64,000 nucleotides of DNA from Cloeon dipterum (lineage: Eukaryota > Arthropoda > Insecta > Ephemeroptera > Baetidae), in the NCBI RefSeq assembly GCF_949628265.1, contig NC_088787.1, positions 19,148,501 to 19,212,500 on the forward strand. Direction: 5' to 3'. The translations under genes were made by a program, and so were the position numbers. The first letter of the stretch is position 1; each line of letters opens with the position of its first letter. The notes beneath the pieces were generated by a model, which saw nothing but the letters and a program-made list of their open reading frames with translations, was not told the DNA's origin and made no database searches. Shown piece after piece: positions 13,196 through 22,161 of this stretch.

Positions 13196-16100
13196 ATGTG
13201 CTCCACACGATTCCTCATCCGAGCAGCAATCATCTCTTTTTGCATCTTATTCGCCAACGCCGCCAATGAGCAACAAGTGAGTTTATCATTTAAAATTATT
13301 CATTGAATTTTTTTGTTGAATTCTATCTTTTAATTTACTATATAGCTGTAAAAACTTGAAAACATTTTATCCACCTAGAAATTTTATTTTTCGATTTAAC
13401 AACTGAATTTATTGTAAAATTTAAGCTGTTTCAAGCTGACATAAATTTTCAGAGCCTTTTTACAGACCTTTTTTTAATTATAGGTGTAAATCCTTATTGA
13501 AAATTTTAGCAACAATTTTGCTTATTTTTTAAATAGAGTTAAAATTTTGTATGCTCAGCCAATTTATTTATTTGAAAATCTATTTAAGGATTCGGAATCG
13601 AAGCTGAAAACATCCGTGAGTGTTCAGGGTCTGGTTCGCCACAGATATGCAACGGTGCAAATTTCGTCTCTTATTGAAAACCCAAGCAACGAATCTCAGG
13701 AGACCAACATCACAATACACATTCCTGAAAACGCATTCGTCTCGTACGCAACGCTGTAAGTTTCTGAAAATTCTGCGAGATCAAGTTGTTCACTTCGTGT
13801 CTTAGAGAGGTGGACGGGGAGGTCATTCGGAGTCAAGTGCAAGAGCGAAAGGTCGTGCAGCAGCAATACCAACTGGCGGTCGGCACTGGGGCAACTGCGA
13901 GTCAAGTTTCTGCGTAAGGCAATAAAAAGAACCGCTACAGCTCCACTTAATTTCTTATAATGCGATCGGCGGATCGAAAATAATTACAATACAATCTCTC
14001 TATCGATAGGATGATGATTTAAATTACAGATTTTTTCCAGGGTGAGAGATGCAAACGCTGTTCTCATTTCTGTCAACGCAGGCGCGAAATCAAACACGTT
14101 ATTTAACGTGACTTACGAGGAACTGCTCGTTCGGCGCAAGGGCCGCTACGAGATGGCAATTAGTGTTGACCCAAAATTGGTCAGTGTTCGCGTTAATATT
14201 TGTTGAGCGGGATAGTTAACTTTTGTCTATAGGAAATGGAATATTTCAAAGTGGATTTGGAAATTAAGGAGAACAAGAACTTTACATTTGTGAACGTGCC
14301 GCCATTCAGCTCCACGTTGACACCTGATGATTTAGGTATGAATTTGTTAAACGTTTTTCTATAAAATGAAATCTATTTAAATTTTTAGATCACACAGTTC
14401 AAAATGAAGAAGTCAATATCGAATATTTGGAGGACGCGGGTCACTGCAAAATTTCTTATTTCAAAGAGGCGAATGCCGATGGAAAGGTCAAATCCCCAGG
14501 ACCGTTTGTCCTTAGATATGACGTGGATCGTGAGGGGAAACAAGGAGAAGTTCTGGTATTTTTATTGCAATTCTAAAAATAATTGTTTTAATTCATTTGC
14601 TATTTAAATCTGTATTGCAGCTCCTTGATGGACATTTTGTACACTTTTTGTCAGCGGAGAAGGAAAAGTACAATCCCGCCGTGTTCCCAAAGCATGCGAT
14701 TTTTGTGCTCGACTCGAGCGCGTCCATGTGGGGCTCCAAACTGAAGCAGCTGCAGGTTGCCATGTCGCAAATTTTAAGACAGCTCTCCAGACAGGACGTC
14801 TTCAGCATCGTCACTTTCGGCAATAAGGCCACTGTAAGTGACAACTGACGGGAATGAAAATATATTATAAAGTATAGATTTCTCCAGGAATGGTACATGC
14901 AAGGACTGCAGCCTTCACTCGGCAAAGGCGTTTACGCCGTGAACAGGCGCAATGTTGCGGACGCTATGGATTTTATTTCCCGAATGCAAGCGACTGGAGG
15001 TTTGATTTCTAGTGAAAATGTAATTTTCTTGGCGCTAATAAGAAAAATCAGGTACTAACATCCAGGCTGGTCTGAGAAGGGCGTTGTATCTCGCGGCAAA
15101 ATACAGGAACATCCCTCTCATTCCGGGAGTTTCTGAGGGTGCGAATTACACAACGCCGCGACCAGAAGCGAAAAAGGAGGTGGAGACCCTGCTTATGTTC
15201 CTGTCAGACGGCATTCCCACTGCTGGGGAAATCAGGCTCAGCAAATTGCTCAAATCCGTGCACTTTGTAAATACCAATGTTAAGGTAAAACTATTCTAAG
15301 TTTATTATTTAATATTATCAATTTTCAATTAATATTAAAGGCGAGCATTTTCGCCCTGGCATTTGGAACGACGGCAAACTACGGCTTTTTGAGGCGAATG
15401 GCCCTACAGAACTACGGTTTTAGCCGCAGGATTTACGAAAGTTCAGACACGGCTATTCAGTTGCAGAGTTTCTTCCAAGAAATCACGTCTCCGTTGCTGA
15501 AAAATGTCACATTTACTTACTTAGATAATAAGGTAGGTTTTCAGAGTCAAAATATGTGGCCGCACAATATATATGAGTGATTTTTGACAGGTCAACTTCA
15601 GCTCATTGACCCTTAGAGAGTTTCCGATTCTTTTCTCGGGCAGCGAAGTTGTAGTCGCTGGCAAATTAAATGACGATTTCGAGCCTGAAGATCAGGATGA
15701 TGAACTGATTGGAAGCTTTTCCGCACAAGGAACGATCTTGAGGGTTTCCAACAATATAACAGTGCCCACAGAGGCTATTACTGCAAATAAAACACAAGTG
15801 GTACAATTCTTTTTATTATTAACCACACATCATATCCTCAATTACTCAAAGTACACATTTTTCAGTGTTTTGATTTTAATTTTTCTCTTCAGCCAACGCG
15901 CAAACGACGCAGATATGGAGTTTTGGAGAAAATTTGGGCCCAATTGACGATTCGCCAGCTTCTAGACAACTATTTAATTGAAGATTTTGGTGACGAATCG
16001 ACTGAAAATAAGGAGTCTGACGCGGCAGACAGTCAGAAATTGGAAGACAACAACCAACAAAGGGCACTTGAGCTTGCTTTAAAGGTTTCCTTTTCTCCTT

Positions 16101-16907
16101 GTTTAATATTACATTTTTACTCCTTTATTCTTTTTAAATAGTATGGATTTGTAACGCCTTTGACGTCACTAATAGTGGTGTCCGAAAAGAAACCGGTGGT
16201 TGTAATTAACTCGGAAAACATGGAAAATGACTTGAAACAGCAGGACCAAATACATTTTAGCGACAAAGCTGGTAATGGACCTTTTTTTCATTTGACGTTA
16301 ATATTTTCGTTTTAACACATATATGTTTTGCACCAAAATGCAGTACCACCGATGTTGTCGCCGATGAGCATCCAGCATGCTGCACTTTATAACAAATCAA
16401 GTGAGGGGGAGAGTAGTGATAAATGTCCGTTTCTGTGTGAAACAAATTTGTCAAATTTTTATTAATAATGATGATAAACATTCGCAGCGCCTTCTGAAAA
16501 GTTTGAGTGGCTGTCTACTTTGCTGGCGGAGAACGACAGCGTAACTTTCATCAAGCCAAATGGGGAAGAAATCACTCGAACTGTCAAAATACCAAGTGAA
16601 GAGGTATTTCCCCACTCAAAATATAAATATTACAGTTTTATTTGTTTTAAACAAATAAATAGGTAGATGAAACGCTGAATGAATGCGTGTTTAAATCTGA
16701 AGATGACACAGAAAAGACTGGCAATTGCAGACCGCTGTTGAGCTGTCCAAGCTCGCAAGTTCCCACATTTGACGAGTATTTCAGGAGGCACTGCGACTTC
16801 GACAGGTATAAAAGATTGCAAATGCAAAAGTTAGCACCAGGTATTCAGCGCCTTCCTTATTTTTCTTTCGCAGCACAACGTTGGCCGTTTGCTGCTTGAA
16901 GAGCTAG
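13196..16907 (+). CDS. Secreted ITI heavy-chain-like protein (VIT + vWA) with C-terminal CLIP-like domain, 17 exons
   Basis: Exons are 13196-13276, 13559-13755, 13806-13913, 14041-14179, 14233-14335, 14389-14555, 14621-14833, 14887-14999, 15052-15284, 15341-15532, 15591-15796, 15893-16084, 16142-16271, 16344-16400, 16488-16603, 16663-16805 and 16874-16907. They sum to 2424 nt, or 807 aa. A signal peptide (residues 1-22) is followed by a VIT domain (about 40-170) and a von Willebrand A domain with a MIDAS DSSAS at 296-300 and FLSDGIPTAGE further on. The ITIH-family C-terminal region follows (KRRRYGVLEKIWAQLTIRQL). The last about 51 residues hold six cysteines at 757, 771, 777, 793, 803 and 804, with the C-x-G-x-C ... 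CC spacing of CLIP domains. I do not see the vertebrate DPHF motif used for chondroitin linkage. The likely role is extracellular matrix or haemolymph binding. The start of exon 2 is the least certain border. Confidence 0.9.
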
Positions 16908-17155
16908 GCATCCCGCAGAGCACGAGTGTTCGCCGGTTGCGTACTTATCAGAAAATTCAATTATTTATATATTTATTGCATTAAGTGCCGAATTTAAATA
17001 TGTGGATCAAATGCAAACGTGATTAGGGAGGAAATAAAATTATAATTTTCTTCAGTTTAAGTTCTTTATTTATATCAGCAATGTTTTAATACCTTTATGA
17101 ATGCCTAGATATAAGGATTTTTTTGGAAATTTAACATCCAGAAAATGATCGATAT

Positions 17156-17872
17156 TTAAACCAGCCCATTCTGCCGTAATACACGTTCTCTGAACAGCCA
17201 GTACTCTACAGAGCGGAGATTTGCCAATAAAATAATAATAATGATAATGCATGAAGTAAATAATATTATGACATAAAAAAATGAAATAACTTCTTCATCG
17301 ATTGCGAACATGTCCTCTGCAAAATCAATAAATAAGTTGTGATCCATTAGTTCATCGAATGCAAGGGTCCTCTGCTTGTTTACAATTGGAAGAACAGGAC
17401 GTTGCTGGTTAATTTCATTTGGATCAATATTATGCATTTCAATGTTTTCGACGTCACTATCGTCCACCGCCGAAGTAGTGCTGACTTGGTCAGTCGAGCT
17501 TACAGTGTCAGTCAAATCTGAGTACTCACTTGTCGAGTCTACAGTTTCAGTCAAATCTGAGTACTCGGTTGTCCAGTCTAGATAAGTCTCGGTAAAATCG
17601 GCGTCAGTTGTTGAAACAGGATCGATATATTCAGGAATGCTGGTGCTGGGGTACGTGGTAGTCTCGTTCACTTCAGAAGTGACAGTAGTTGTAAGACAGT
17701 CGGCACAAGCTTCGATTTCGGGAGTGGTAGTTGTTAGCAGTGTTTCTGCCTCTTCAGTCGGGTCATGATTGAGCGCGTCCAGAGAATGTGGCTCCAATTG
17801 AAGCACGGGAATAGAGGCACTACTTGATAGACTCAATAGCACGGACAAAACGACGATCTTCTTCATCTTCAT
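17156..17872 (-). CDS. Mucin-like single-pass membrane protein, 238 aa, unrecognised
   Basis: One uninterrupted coding exon. The protein has an N-terminal signal peptide (residues 1-19), a Thr/Ser/Asp/Glu-rich ectodomain suited to O-glycosylation, one C-x-x-C (CADC, about 56-59), and two adjacent near-identical repeats starting EYSDLTETVDST and EYSDLTDTVSST (103-127). A strongly hydrophobic helix (about 197-217) precedes a short basic cytosolic tail (about 218-238). The topology is type I. I know no family for it. A splice acceptor lies about 10 bases before the ATG, so the 5' UTR is probably spliced from upstream. The stop is 248 bases from the convergent ITIH-like gene. A decayed partial copy of this locus lies downstream on the map (18.75-20.6 kb). 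Confidence 0.75.
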   Translation of the reverse strand: MKMKKIVVLSVLLSLSSSASIPVLQLEPHSLDALNHDPTEEAETLLTTTTPEIEACADCLTTTVTSEVNETTTYPSTSIPEYIDPVSTTDADFTETYLDWTTEYSDLTETVDSTSEYSDLTDTVSSTDQVSTTSAVDDSDVENIEMHNIDPNEINQQRPVLPIVNKQRTLAFDELMDHNLFIDFAEDMFAIDEEVISFFYVIILFTSCIIIIIILLANLRSVEYWLFRERVLRQNGLV

Positions 17873-17879
17873 CTTAATC

Positions 17880-18755
17880 CTGGAAAATAATGATAATTTA
17901 AAGAAATTTTGTTACAATTCAATATCAATTGCTCTTTCATTTTAGAGTTAATTTAATATCTTTTTTTGGAAATACAATTATTGGTTCTTGAATATGAAAA
18001 GGAGAAAATATTCAGTTTCATAATCACTCAAGAAACGAGAGTTAAACTATTGTCCCCGTGTACAACGCTTTTAAGAATTTAAAAAGGATACCTGAAATAT
18101 GCTTTAGCAATAGAATGGCGTTGAAATAAAAATTAAATAATACATTTTGTTCAGTCTTAGCCACGAAAGCGGTGTTGAAATAAGTAACTGTACGAAATTA
18201 AAAATGAAATTAGATGCTGCGGGGCATATCCACTGTAAATAACGCTGGTTAAATAATACGAGTTTTGCTGACGGAGAGGGAATAAGCAGTCTTTTATTTT
18301 CATAACAACCCCATGCTATCAGGGGAAGATACGTTAATGATTTGGAAAAAAAAAACGCCATATATATTATGCTTCTCGCCTTTTGCTGCTGAGAAGCAAT
18401 TTCGGACTCTATTTTGCCTTTAAACTAAAGTGAAATTATAATACTTACATAATTTTTGTCTATCTTCATTGAAGAAATGTTCAGAGAATCAGCGGGATGC
18501 ACCGACGCGAAGGGATTTACGCCACATGTGTGTTGAATGCAACAAGTAGTGGCGCCAGTGCGATACTAGTTTATGATCTCCCCGACAGGGAGGGTGTCAG
18601 GGTGAAAATACCCTTGAGTTATGCAACCTGCAAGAAGTATAGCAGCAAATGCATCGTGGGTGTCGTAATAAATAAAACTTCATTTTTAAAAACAAAGTTA
18701 ATTAAATTGTGTCTTGCAGCACACAAATTTTATAAGCTATCCTTTTCTCCAGTTA
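17880..18755 (-). promoter_or_regulatory. Upstream region of the mucin-like gene (first copy of a duplicated block)
   Basis: No independent gene is visible. It should contain the noncoding first exon and promoter of the mucin-like gene. Much of it recurs, diverged, at 19500-19880 and 20340-20590. For example, a segment reading GATGCTGCGGGGCATA occurs at 18212 and again near 19674. A second shared part around 18490-18720 matches 20350-20580. Confidence 0.5.
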
Positions 18756-18965
18756 CTGGAAAATTAAATGACGATATTGCTCCTGAAGGTCAAGATGCAG
18801 AGCACGAGTGTTCCACCGGTGTTGTGTTTTTGTTGGATATTGTATTTATTGCATTTTATTAGTGCCACTGTTAAATATTTAAATCATATACAAACGTGAT
18901 AAGGAGGAAAATGTAGTATGACGGAGTTATTTTCTTCAGTTAAATTTCTTGTTTTATTAAACAAC
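18755..18965 (+). pseudogene. Fragment of the ITIH-like gene (exon 11 piece joined to 3' UTR)
   Basis: The first about 45 bases match part of exon 11 of the ITIH-like gene (15655-15703; shared AAATTAAATGACGAT and CCTGAAG-TCA-GAT). The match then jumps directly to the sequence just after that gene's stop codon (about 16915-17070; shared GAGCACGAGTGTTC, ACAAACGTGAT-like, TTTTCTTCAGTT). The intervening exons 12-17 are missing. It is therefore a broken partial duplicate, not a functional gene. Confidence 0.75.
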
Positions 18966-19880
18966 CCTAGTAACCATCAAGGTTGATCAAGAGTCATTTG
19001 ATTTGCTGTTGAAATTCAAGAAGGGTAAAAGTTGCTCATTTTGATGAAATTCTTTTTGGAAAGTTAAGATCACATTCATGGTTACCAAATTTGACAATTT
19101 TTGTTTTGGTCAAGTAACGGTAAGTGCCATTTTGAAGCATGCTTGAATTAGTCTTGAATTTCAACAATCATGAAATATGGTCTTCTTGAAAAACTCATGT
19201 TTGGAATTTATTTAATGAGCTTCAAAATGACCGAATTCATTATCATTAACTCGTAGCTGCAGATAGTATTGAACCATTGATCGTTGGGGTTTGGAGGCGT
19301 CCTCTTACACTCATTTCAGAGTGCAAACGATAGAGAAAAACGAGCAACGAAATTGAAAACCCAGCAACAGAATCTCCCTGACCTCCCAGTGATAATTTCC
19401 TCTTACAAAAATTCAACTTAGCCAAAAGTTTCATCCTTTCTTATATGAGCTATTTTCAAAGAGTTAAAGACTGCTAATTACATCAAGAAAATAATTCAAG
19501 AAGAGAAAAAATAATTTTCTTGTAGCTGATTATTGGAAAATAATTTTTTAAAGTAAATTCTTCTTACACGTGGTTTTTCTTTTTCTCGTACATTAAATAT
19601 ACTTTGTTGATTTTAGGAGCGTAAGTGATGTTGAAATTAGTAACTGCATGTCAAACACGAAATTTATTCAATTAGATGCTGCGGGGCATAATATTAAAAA
19701 AGCTGATTAGCTACGAGTGCTTCTGACGGAGGGAAAAGGTAAAATTAATTTATATATATAACAACCCTTTGCTATCAACGGAGGACGCGACAAAGGTTAA
19801 GAAAACAAAGCTTGCATCATCCCTCTCGCAGCTGAAAAAAAATTTGGGACTCTTTTATACTGTTGCAAAATTGTACTTAC
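18965..19880 (-). pseudogene. Decayed second copy of the mucin-like gene and its upstream DNA
   Basis: Its position between the ITIH fragment and the duplicated upstream block implies a copy of the mucin-like locus. A short stretch at about 19048-19070 (TTTTTGGAAAGTTAAGATC) matches the mucin gene's 3' flank at about 17118-17140. The stretch at 19610-19880 matches 18150-18430. No coding frame resembling the mucin-like protein remains in 19100-19500, only a short unrelated open frame. A TATAAAAG-like element on the minus strand near 19855 corresponds to the presumed promoter area. Confidence 0.5.
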
Positions 19881-21351: not shown

Positions 21352-21417
21352 CTAAAAAATGCTTGTAAATGTTTATGTTTAAATCCGTTCTAGCCGATTA
21401 TTGTGCAAGAAACAAGT

Positions 21418-21557
21418 CGTCCTGGTCCCGGCAAAATTGCGTAACTTTCAACAACCAAACGCGAATTTCCTTGTTGCAAGAAAAGGTCAACAATCAATTC
21501 GACAATGAAAATTTGGTTGTTTGTTGAACGTTGCGCAATTTTGCCGGGACCAGGACG
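21418..21557. repeat. Long inverted repeat (hairpin), about 45-base arms
   Basis: The left arm begins CGTCCTGGTCCCGGCAAAAT at 21418. The right arm ends with its exact complement at 21557. The outer 24 bases pair perfectly and pairing continues with a few mismatches and bulges through the AACAACCAAA segment, leaving a loop of about 50 bases. It may be a small foldback transposon or a transcribed hairpin. No terminal target duplication was seen. Confidence 0.8.
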
Positions 21558-22161
21558 AAGTACTTCTTTAGCGCGCGCGTTAAATGCAGTCACTCTTGAT
21601 TTCATTGGAATGTGAAAGCGCCGTTCAGCTTCATTTCCTTGTGTTTGGAATAGTTGTTTTTTCAATCCATATATATGAAGTGATATATGATGTTTGCTAT
21701 TAGTAAAGAAGTGCGAATTTGTTCGTGACGCGTCTCAGGCCACTAATAAGACAAGAAGTGTTCTACTTTTAAAAATAAAAATCGCACCTTGCTTTGGGTG
21801 TAGAGAGGTATCTTCTGCCCTGAAGTGCCCTCTTCAGGGGACAACAATAACTACACAAGGAAAATTTTGGCGTGGATTCGTTTATTTAACATATGCATAA
21901 TAAATTATTAACATTCTAACTTTATACACTTTCAACTTACAAAACTAACAGTGATAAAATGATAAATTGAAGAGGCCATACTTAGCTTCTTTGGCCTGAT
22001 GCAGTATTTATATAATTACGAGTGACCCGTTTTTCATTTCATAAAATCTATACTGTGGAGACTTTTACACAAAATTTATCAAAAAATCTTAGAATATGGC
22101 TGCTTCCAGAGTAAAATACAACAAAGCACAAACACACATGCAGGAAGAGTTCACTCGCCGG

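Follow-up and report, generated by a model that had tools for sequence, protein, structure and literature searches.

The window analysed here, a stretch of 64,000 nucleotides of the Cloeon dipterum genome, carries a gene for an ITI heavy-chain (ITIH)-like protein. A preliminary description of this DNA had proposed that the protein, built of VIT and vWA domains and devoid of a protease, ends in a six-cysteine domain of the arthropod CLIP type in place of the vertebrate ITIH C-terminal region, which would link it to the protease network of the haemolymph. This leads one to ask whether the end belongs to the gene, whether it is related to CLIP domains and what it might do at the C-terminus of an ITIH-like protein.

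Gene structure and body domains

Spliced from 17 coding exons, whose boundaries were chosen by hand, the gene gives a reading frame without internal stops, and all 16 introns are of the GT-AG type (Table 1). Both VIT and vWA score above the Pfam cut-off and, in agreement with the preliminary description, no protease family was reported by Pfam for the window protein. The metal site of the vWA domain is complete, DSSAS being accompanied by GGTN at residue 363 and SDG at 415; the three corresponding motifs (D-x-S-x-S, GGTN, [TS]DG) are also present in both paralogs described below. The N-terminus is hydrophobic according to a hydropathy scan. Outside the end, the only cysteines are at positions 2 and 16, within the hydrophobic start, and 219. 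The furin-like motif is absent from the same place in the paralogs, one of which (C) has REKR elsewhere, at residue 355 (motif scan).

Table 1. Features of the window gene and location of its two paralogs (positions in the window, except for the paralogs)
Feature	Position	Strand	Description
ITIH-like gene	13196..16907	+	806 residues; a signal-like hydrophobic start is followed by VIT, vWA, a linker and the CLIP-like end
Exons 2-4, VIT (residues 35-144)	13589..14179	+	PF08487 62.4 bits, E 5.4e-17
Exons 7-10, vWA (residues 282-487)	14621..15532	+	PF13768 57.2 bits; PF00092 41.2 bits
MIDAS D-x-S-x-S = DSSAS (residues 286-290)	14711..14725	+	motif scan
Furin-like R-K-R-R (residues 578-581)	15899..15910	+	between vWA and IWAQLTI segment; motif scan
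Exon 15, linker	16488..16603	+	FEWLSTLL..PNGEE aligns with W-L-containing linkers of paralogs B and C
Phase-0 intron directly before CLIP-like domain	16604..16662	+	phase and place match in both paralogs
Exon 16, Cys1-Cys4 (756, 770, 776, 792)	16663..16805	+	spliced model
Phase-2 intron, Cys4 to Cys5-Cys6 loop	16806..16873	+	GT...AG; phase and place match in both paralogs
Exon 17, Cys5-Cys6 (802, 803)	16874..16907	+	end of split Ser codon, TTLAVCCLKS, stop
Paralog B	G000:C2:29389515-29383789	-	hand-spliced, 15 exons, 884 residues
Paralog C (L025)	G000:C5:5665511-5671437	+	hand-spliced, 15 exons, 898 residues

Several sequences near the gene deserve mention in their own right. Part of exon 11 (47 nt) recurs downstream, at 18751-18797 (81% identity), and positions 18843-18957 match the region just past the stop of the gene (16970-17073; 72% over 116 columns). 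Together, these two segments form a broken partial copy of the gene, as if the intervening part had been lost, and they are flanked by a direct repeat of about 220 bases (18132-18353 and 19592-19809, 68% identical). On the minus strand, a single-frame ORF of 238 aa (17156-17872) has a signal-like start and a Thr/Ser-rich stretch, which holds a tandem repeat of 39 nt (17493-17570). With a hydrophobic segment close to its C-terminus, it has the appearance of a small membrane protein of the mucin type. Further on, an inverted self-match at 21417-21558 (143 columns, 75.5%) is possibly a small palindromic mobile element. A DNA search for a TTAGG array, with a tool that passes over simple repeats, gave no match.

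A CLIP-like end common to three ITIH-like genes

The last two exons and their junction, as placed in the preliminary description, were recovered in the spliced model, and the six cysteines stand in CLIP order; their earlier numbering (757 to 804), however, was one residue too high at each position (Table 1). The protein ends in VDETLNECVFKSEDDTEKTGNCRPLLSCPSSQVPTFDEYFRRHCDFD^STTLAVCCLKS, where the joined 16805/16874 junction reads ...RRHCDFD^S TTLAVCCLKS stop. Loop lengths between successive cysteines are 13-5-15-9-0, the first loop being long. The junction is predicted from splice signals, the open frame and conservation in the paralogs; RNA folding around this last intron gave no signal (z -0.88). 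An AlphaFold prediction of exon 16 alone (47 residues, without Cys5-Cys6) had a mean pLDDT of 55.5, too low to inform on the fold.

A search of the genome with the whole protein, in which only the best candidates were scored, identified at least two paralogs, B and C, and more distant ITIH-like genes are possible. Searching the same genome with the 64-residue tail returned no sequence match other than the tail itself. Both paralogs have VIT and vWA above the Pfam cut-off. The three proteins are well diverged, with identities over aligned residues of 278/753 (36.9%) between the window gene and B, 205/734 (27.9%) between the window gene and C, and 257/800 (32.1%) between B and C.

Paralog B ends in ICANNDVCKPFTTC...LKCDVLLDGDK^FLGVCCPQ and paralog C in SPCLSPLKEPSHCRHLHFCS...RFFCSIN^HFAGVCCPD, so that each of the ITIH-like proteins identified closes with a C..C-x5-C..C..VCC pattern. 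In every case, the third residue of the C2-x5-C3 loop is hydrophobic. Loop lengths are 5-5-19-12-0 in B and 9-5-16-8-0 in C, and the number of residues between Cys1 and Cys6 is 46 in the window gene, 45 in B and 42 in C. The gene structures agree as well: ten intron positions are common to the three genes, with identical phases and offsets of no more than seven alignment columns. They include the phase-0 intron before the domain (columns 927, 934 and 927 for the window gene, B and C) and the intron of phase 2 that separates Cys4 from Cys5-Cys6 (columns 983, 984 and 984). The shared end and intron positions therefore make the CLIP-like end an integral and old part of the ITIH family in this genome. 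As a separate observation, the linker of paralog B (G000:C2:29384454-29384168) contains two extra cysteines (788 and 795) before the CLIP-like end, possibly forming a fourth disulphide.

These comparisons also bear on the gene model. That exons 16 and 17 come from another transcript, or are not spliced to each other, might be suspected from the small size of exon 17 (34 nt), the hand-chosen boundaries and a model predicted from genomic sequence, but such an artefact is very improbable, as the two introns, their phases and the protein end are identical in kind in two diverged paralogs, with an open frame and GT-AG signals throughout.

Relationship of the ends to CLIP domains

Standard domain searches barely recognise these ends. 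Scanned in isolation (58 aa), the tail of the window protein has CLIP as the sole Pfam family reported, with 12.6 bits (E 0.17 for 24,736 models) against a cut-off of 20; the PF12032 match to which the preliminary description had looked thus stays below the curated threshold. A 64-aa tail scored 12.1 bits against the same family, and the Pfam alignment on the window tail begins past Cys1. With the full-length protein (806 residues), Pfam did not report CLIP at E up to 1, nor did an NCBIfam scan of its last 122 residues give any match. Neither the tail of B nor that of C had any Pfam family reported at E up to 10, a range in which HMMER filtering removes the majority of matches beyond about 0.1. 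Within the same limits, none of the three isolated tails gave a Pfam family of another six-cysteine fold, such as Kunitz or chitin-binding type 2, and these candidates were set aside.

The scores against Pfam, with two tails lacking any match, could be taken to mean that the six-cysteine domain arose independently and is CLIP in looks only. Comparisons with known CLIP domains argue in the other direction. Against a home-made CLIP HMM, constructed from ten CLIP domains (seven of the same genome and three from the PDB), the window tail scored 13.8 bits, a value equalled by 1 of 10,000 full shuffles and by 36 of 10,000 shuffles in which the cysteines were kept fixed; by these figures the resemblance exceeds chance, and the same end is present in two paralogs. 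As many as 1089 of 10,000 Cys-fixed shuffles did as well as the tail of B, and 35 as well as that of C. When the three tails, as one profile, were compared with nine reference CLIP domains, also in profile form (hhalign), the match had P 9.4e-6 and a probability of 82.8%. With the cysteines aligned, the profile score was 30.0 (P 4.3e-6), reached by none of 500 Cys-fixed column shuffles (best 20.8) and none of 500 full column shuffles (best 16.4). For reference, in a leave-one-out comparison eight of the nine reference CLIPs scored between 41 and 93, and L028, which diverges most, had 24.5; taken singly, the tails scored 24.9 (window gene), 16.6 (C) and 16.4 (B), with single-sequence P values of 0.0046 for C and 0.0056 for B. 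The sequence evidence for a CLIP relationship is accordingly graded as good for the three-gene family, fair for the window gene alone and mixed for C; by itself, B is inconclusive and proves nothing.

A search of the PDB with the three-row profile had the CLIP structure of PAP-2 (2ikd) as its best match, with the weak E value of 0.43; the next three matches, at 0.57, 0.8 and 1.6, are unrelated chains. With the single window tail, Dicer and 2ikd tie at E 0.78, and this search by itself is no evidence. The weakness of these sequence matches to the PDB clip again speaks for an independent origin.

In honeybee clip proteases, the sequences of which are hypervariable, Cys2 and Cys3 are separated by exactly five residues with one exception, Cys1 and Cys6 are 30-70 residues apart (mean 45) and adjacent Cys5-Cys6 serve as a working criterion, according to the sections of that study drawn on here (PMC1761132). 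All three tails have Cys2-x5-Cys3, a Cys1-Cys6 distance within this range and adjacent Cys5-Cys6. CLIP domains are also recognised by their place ahead of a protease (S1) or a domain resembling one, and here whole-protein Pfam scans of the three genes reported no S1 family. With the PF12032 CLIPs of clotting and melanisation proteases, the three tails share the order of the six cysteines, the two spacings just mentioned, a comparable Cys1-Cys6 gap and VCC. They differ from them in being C-terminal, as the preliminary description had stated for the window protein and as now holds for each ITIH-like gene identified, in scoring below the Pfam cut-off and in having a phase-2 intron in the Cys4-Cys5 loop, where two CLIP-coding genes of this genome appear to have one of phase 0. 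In CLIP domains, the disulphides pair C1-C5, C2-C4 and C3-C6.

The other CLIPs of the genome help to place these differences. PF12032 matched the genome at three places with E up to 0.001 and at ten with E up to 10. None of the ten is an ITIH end, because the domain is split over two exons there and is weak. Four of the ten score 16.6-19.4 bits alone; two of these four pass the cut-off together with neighbouring stretches, and two are partial. In L003, where a CLIP precedes the start of a protease, the intron in the Cys4-Cys5 loop appears to be of phase 0, as it does, judging from the donor only, in the CLIP-coding locus L029. In L001 and L002, the whole CLIP lies within one open frame. It follows that the ITIH end is no recent copy of any of these four.

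Considering the five-residue loop with its hydrophobic third position and the VCC present in every tail, the profile match unmatched by shuffling and the lack of any competing Pfam family reported for the isolated tails at E up to 10 within the filter limits given above, an independent origin is unlikely, and the end domain is probably of the CLIP type.

Possible function and place among ITIH proteins

If the end is of the CLIP type, its role may be to dock the protein to the clip cascade of the haemolymph. Docking would bring the VIT-vWA body to the assemblies of clip proteases, protease homologs and prophenoloxidase found there, where this body could act as an adaptor or as an ITIH4-like inhibitor, which after cleavage by a protease would stay held against that enzyme. 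As an outcome, clotting and melanisation would be limited or localised. The haemocyanin/prophenoloxidase family is present in the genome.

Excerpts from the literature on other arthropods and on human ITIH4 bear on this proposal. Of the eight major serum bands of silkworm, one consists to 97.9% of an ITIH heavy chain (PMC8367846). In Tribolium, three ITIH4-like genes are increased 10.2-, 6.6- and 5.6-fold after LPS, among 70 up-regulated genes, and rise together with serine proteases and serpins (PMC3541394). For a shrimp ITIH H3 transcript, a value of 7.83 is given in one of two challenge columns, quoted here without their labels, and the other is not significant (PMC8388422). Human ITIH4, once cleaved, is described as an inhibitor of MASP-1/2 (reviewed in PMC10855846). 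For PPAF-II, the CLIP domain is presented as a binding module for phenoloxidase or the precursor of this enzyme (PMC4553444, PMC7580898). A study of silkworm immune complexes, in whose main text neither 'inter-alpha' nor 'ITIH' occurs, names a vWA trypsin-inhibitor-like protein (PMC5310873). Taken together, the data on ITIH, on LPS induction and on CLIP binding in PPAF-II suggest that the CLIP-type tail is best read as a docking module. It should, however, be noted that the venom protease homolog Vn50 is reported to inhibit melanisation only with its clip and protease-like domains together, the clip alone being inert (PMC4553444), and that knock-down of ITIH4 in a planthopper affects the ovary, reproduction and survival, with no melanisation phenotype mentioned in the portions of the paper used (PMC8951764). 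Docking is put forward as plausible from the literature, at slightly less than an even chance.

The planthopper phenotype also fits a role in the matrix or in transport, and it can be imagined that a true CLIP relative acts only within the ITIH molecule, as a C-terminal cap or as a dimer or matrix contact that stabilises the protein and never touches the protease network. The fusion of the domain to a protein with no reported S1 family and its far drift from protease CLIPs speak for such an internal role; the joint induction of the Tribolium genes with serine proteases and serpins and the vWA protein of the silkworm immune complexes speak against it. On balance, an internal role is possible but doubtful. 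The preferred explanation as a whole has about an even chance: the window gene encodes a secreted ITIH-family protein in which a VIT scaffold precedes a vWA domain whose metal site is complete, a linker and a CLIP-type end that would serve for docking. As a whole, the interpretation of the preliminary description is partly supported.

The resemblance to vertebrate ITIH4 lies in the VIT-vWA body, the complete MIDAS and, in the window protein, an FVTPLTS segment after vWA, which we take to have a counterpart in vertebrate ITIH4. The difference lies in the end: the window protein closes with the six-cysteine domain, and Pfam reported no ITI_HC_C match (E up to 1 for the window gene, up to 10 for the paralogs), so that the proposed replacement of the vertebrate C-terminal region stands. 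Vertebrate ITIH proteins are cross-linked through a DPHF motif, and a motif scan found no exact DPHF in the window gene, B or C. Paralog C has EPHF at 684-687, near an exon end soon after vWA and one letter off DPHF, probably by chance.

Among insects, ITIH4 of Nilaparvata lugens is like the window protein in that a signal peptide is followed, in unchanged order and at comparable positions, by VIT (64-175) and vWA (304-517 of 907 residues); it is unlike it in that VIT and vWA are the only domains reported for it, and the main text does not use the word 'clip' (PMC8951764). Elsewhere, insect ITIH is described as a serum protein and as LPS-induced, with no CLIP end in the passages at hand (PMC8367846, PMC3541394), and papers that treat both an ITIH heavy chain and a CLIP domain mention them separately in the parts consulted (PMC8367846, PMC8388422). 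Among the matches listed, no title or beginning of an abstract reports a VIT-vWA-CLIP protein, which may already be visible in InterPro, UniProt or arthropod proteomes.

We tentatively suggest, as a view with the odds against it, that VIT-vWA-CLIP is the ancestral arthropod ITIH architecture, missed by domain scans through divergence of the CLIP, and that its bearers are dedicated regulators of the clip cascade. If true, this architecture would be the arthropod counterpart of the ITIH4-MASP arrangement of vertebrate complement. In the studies as excerpted, insect ITIH makes up most of a major serum band or is induced by LPS, yet has no stated molecular role (PMC8367846, PMC3541394). A conserved CLIP-type end would directly link the adhesive, metal-binding ITIH family to the protease network of clotting and melanisation, and would be an example of CLIP domains at work in proteins other than proteases.
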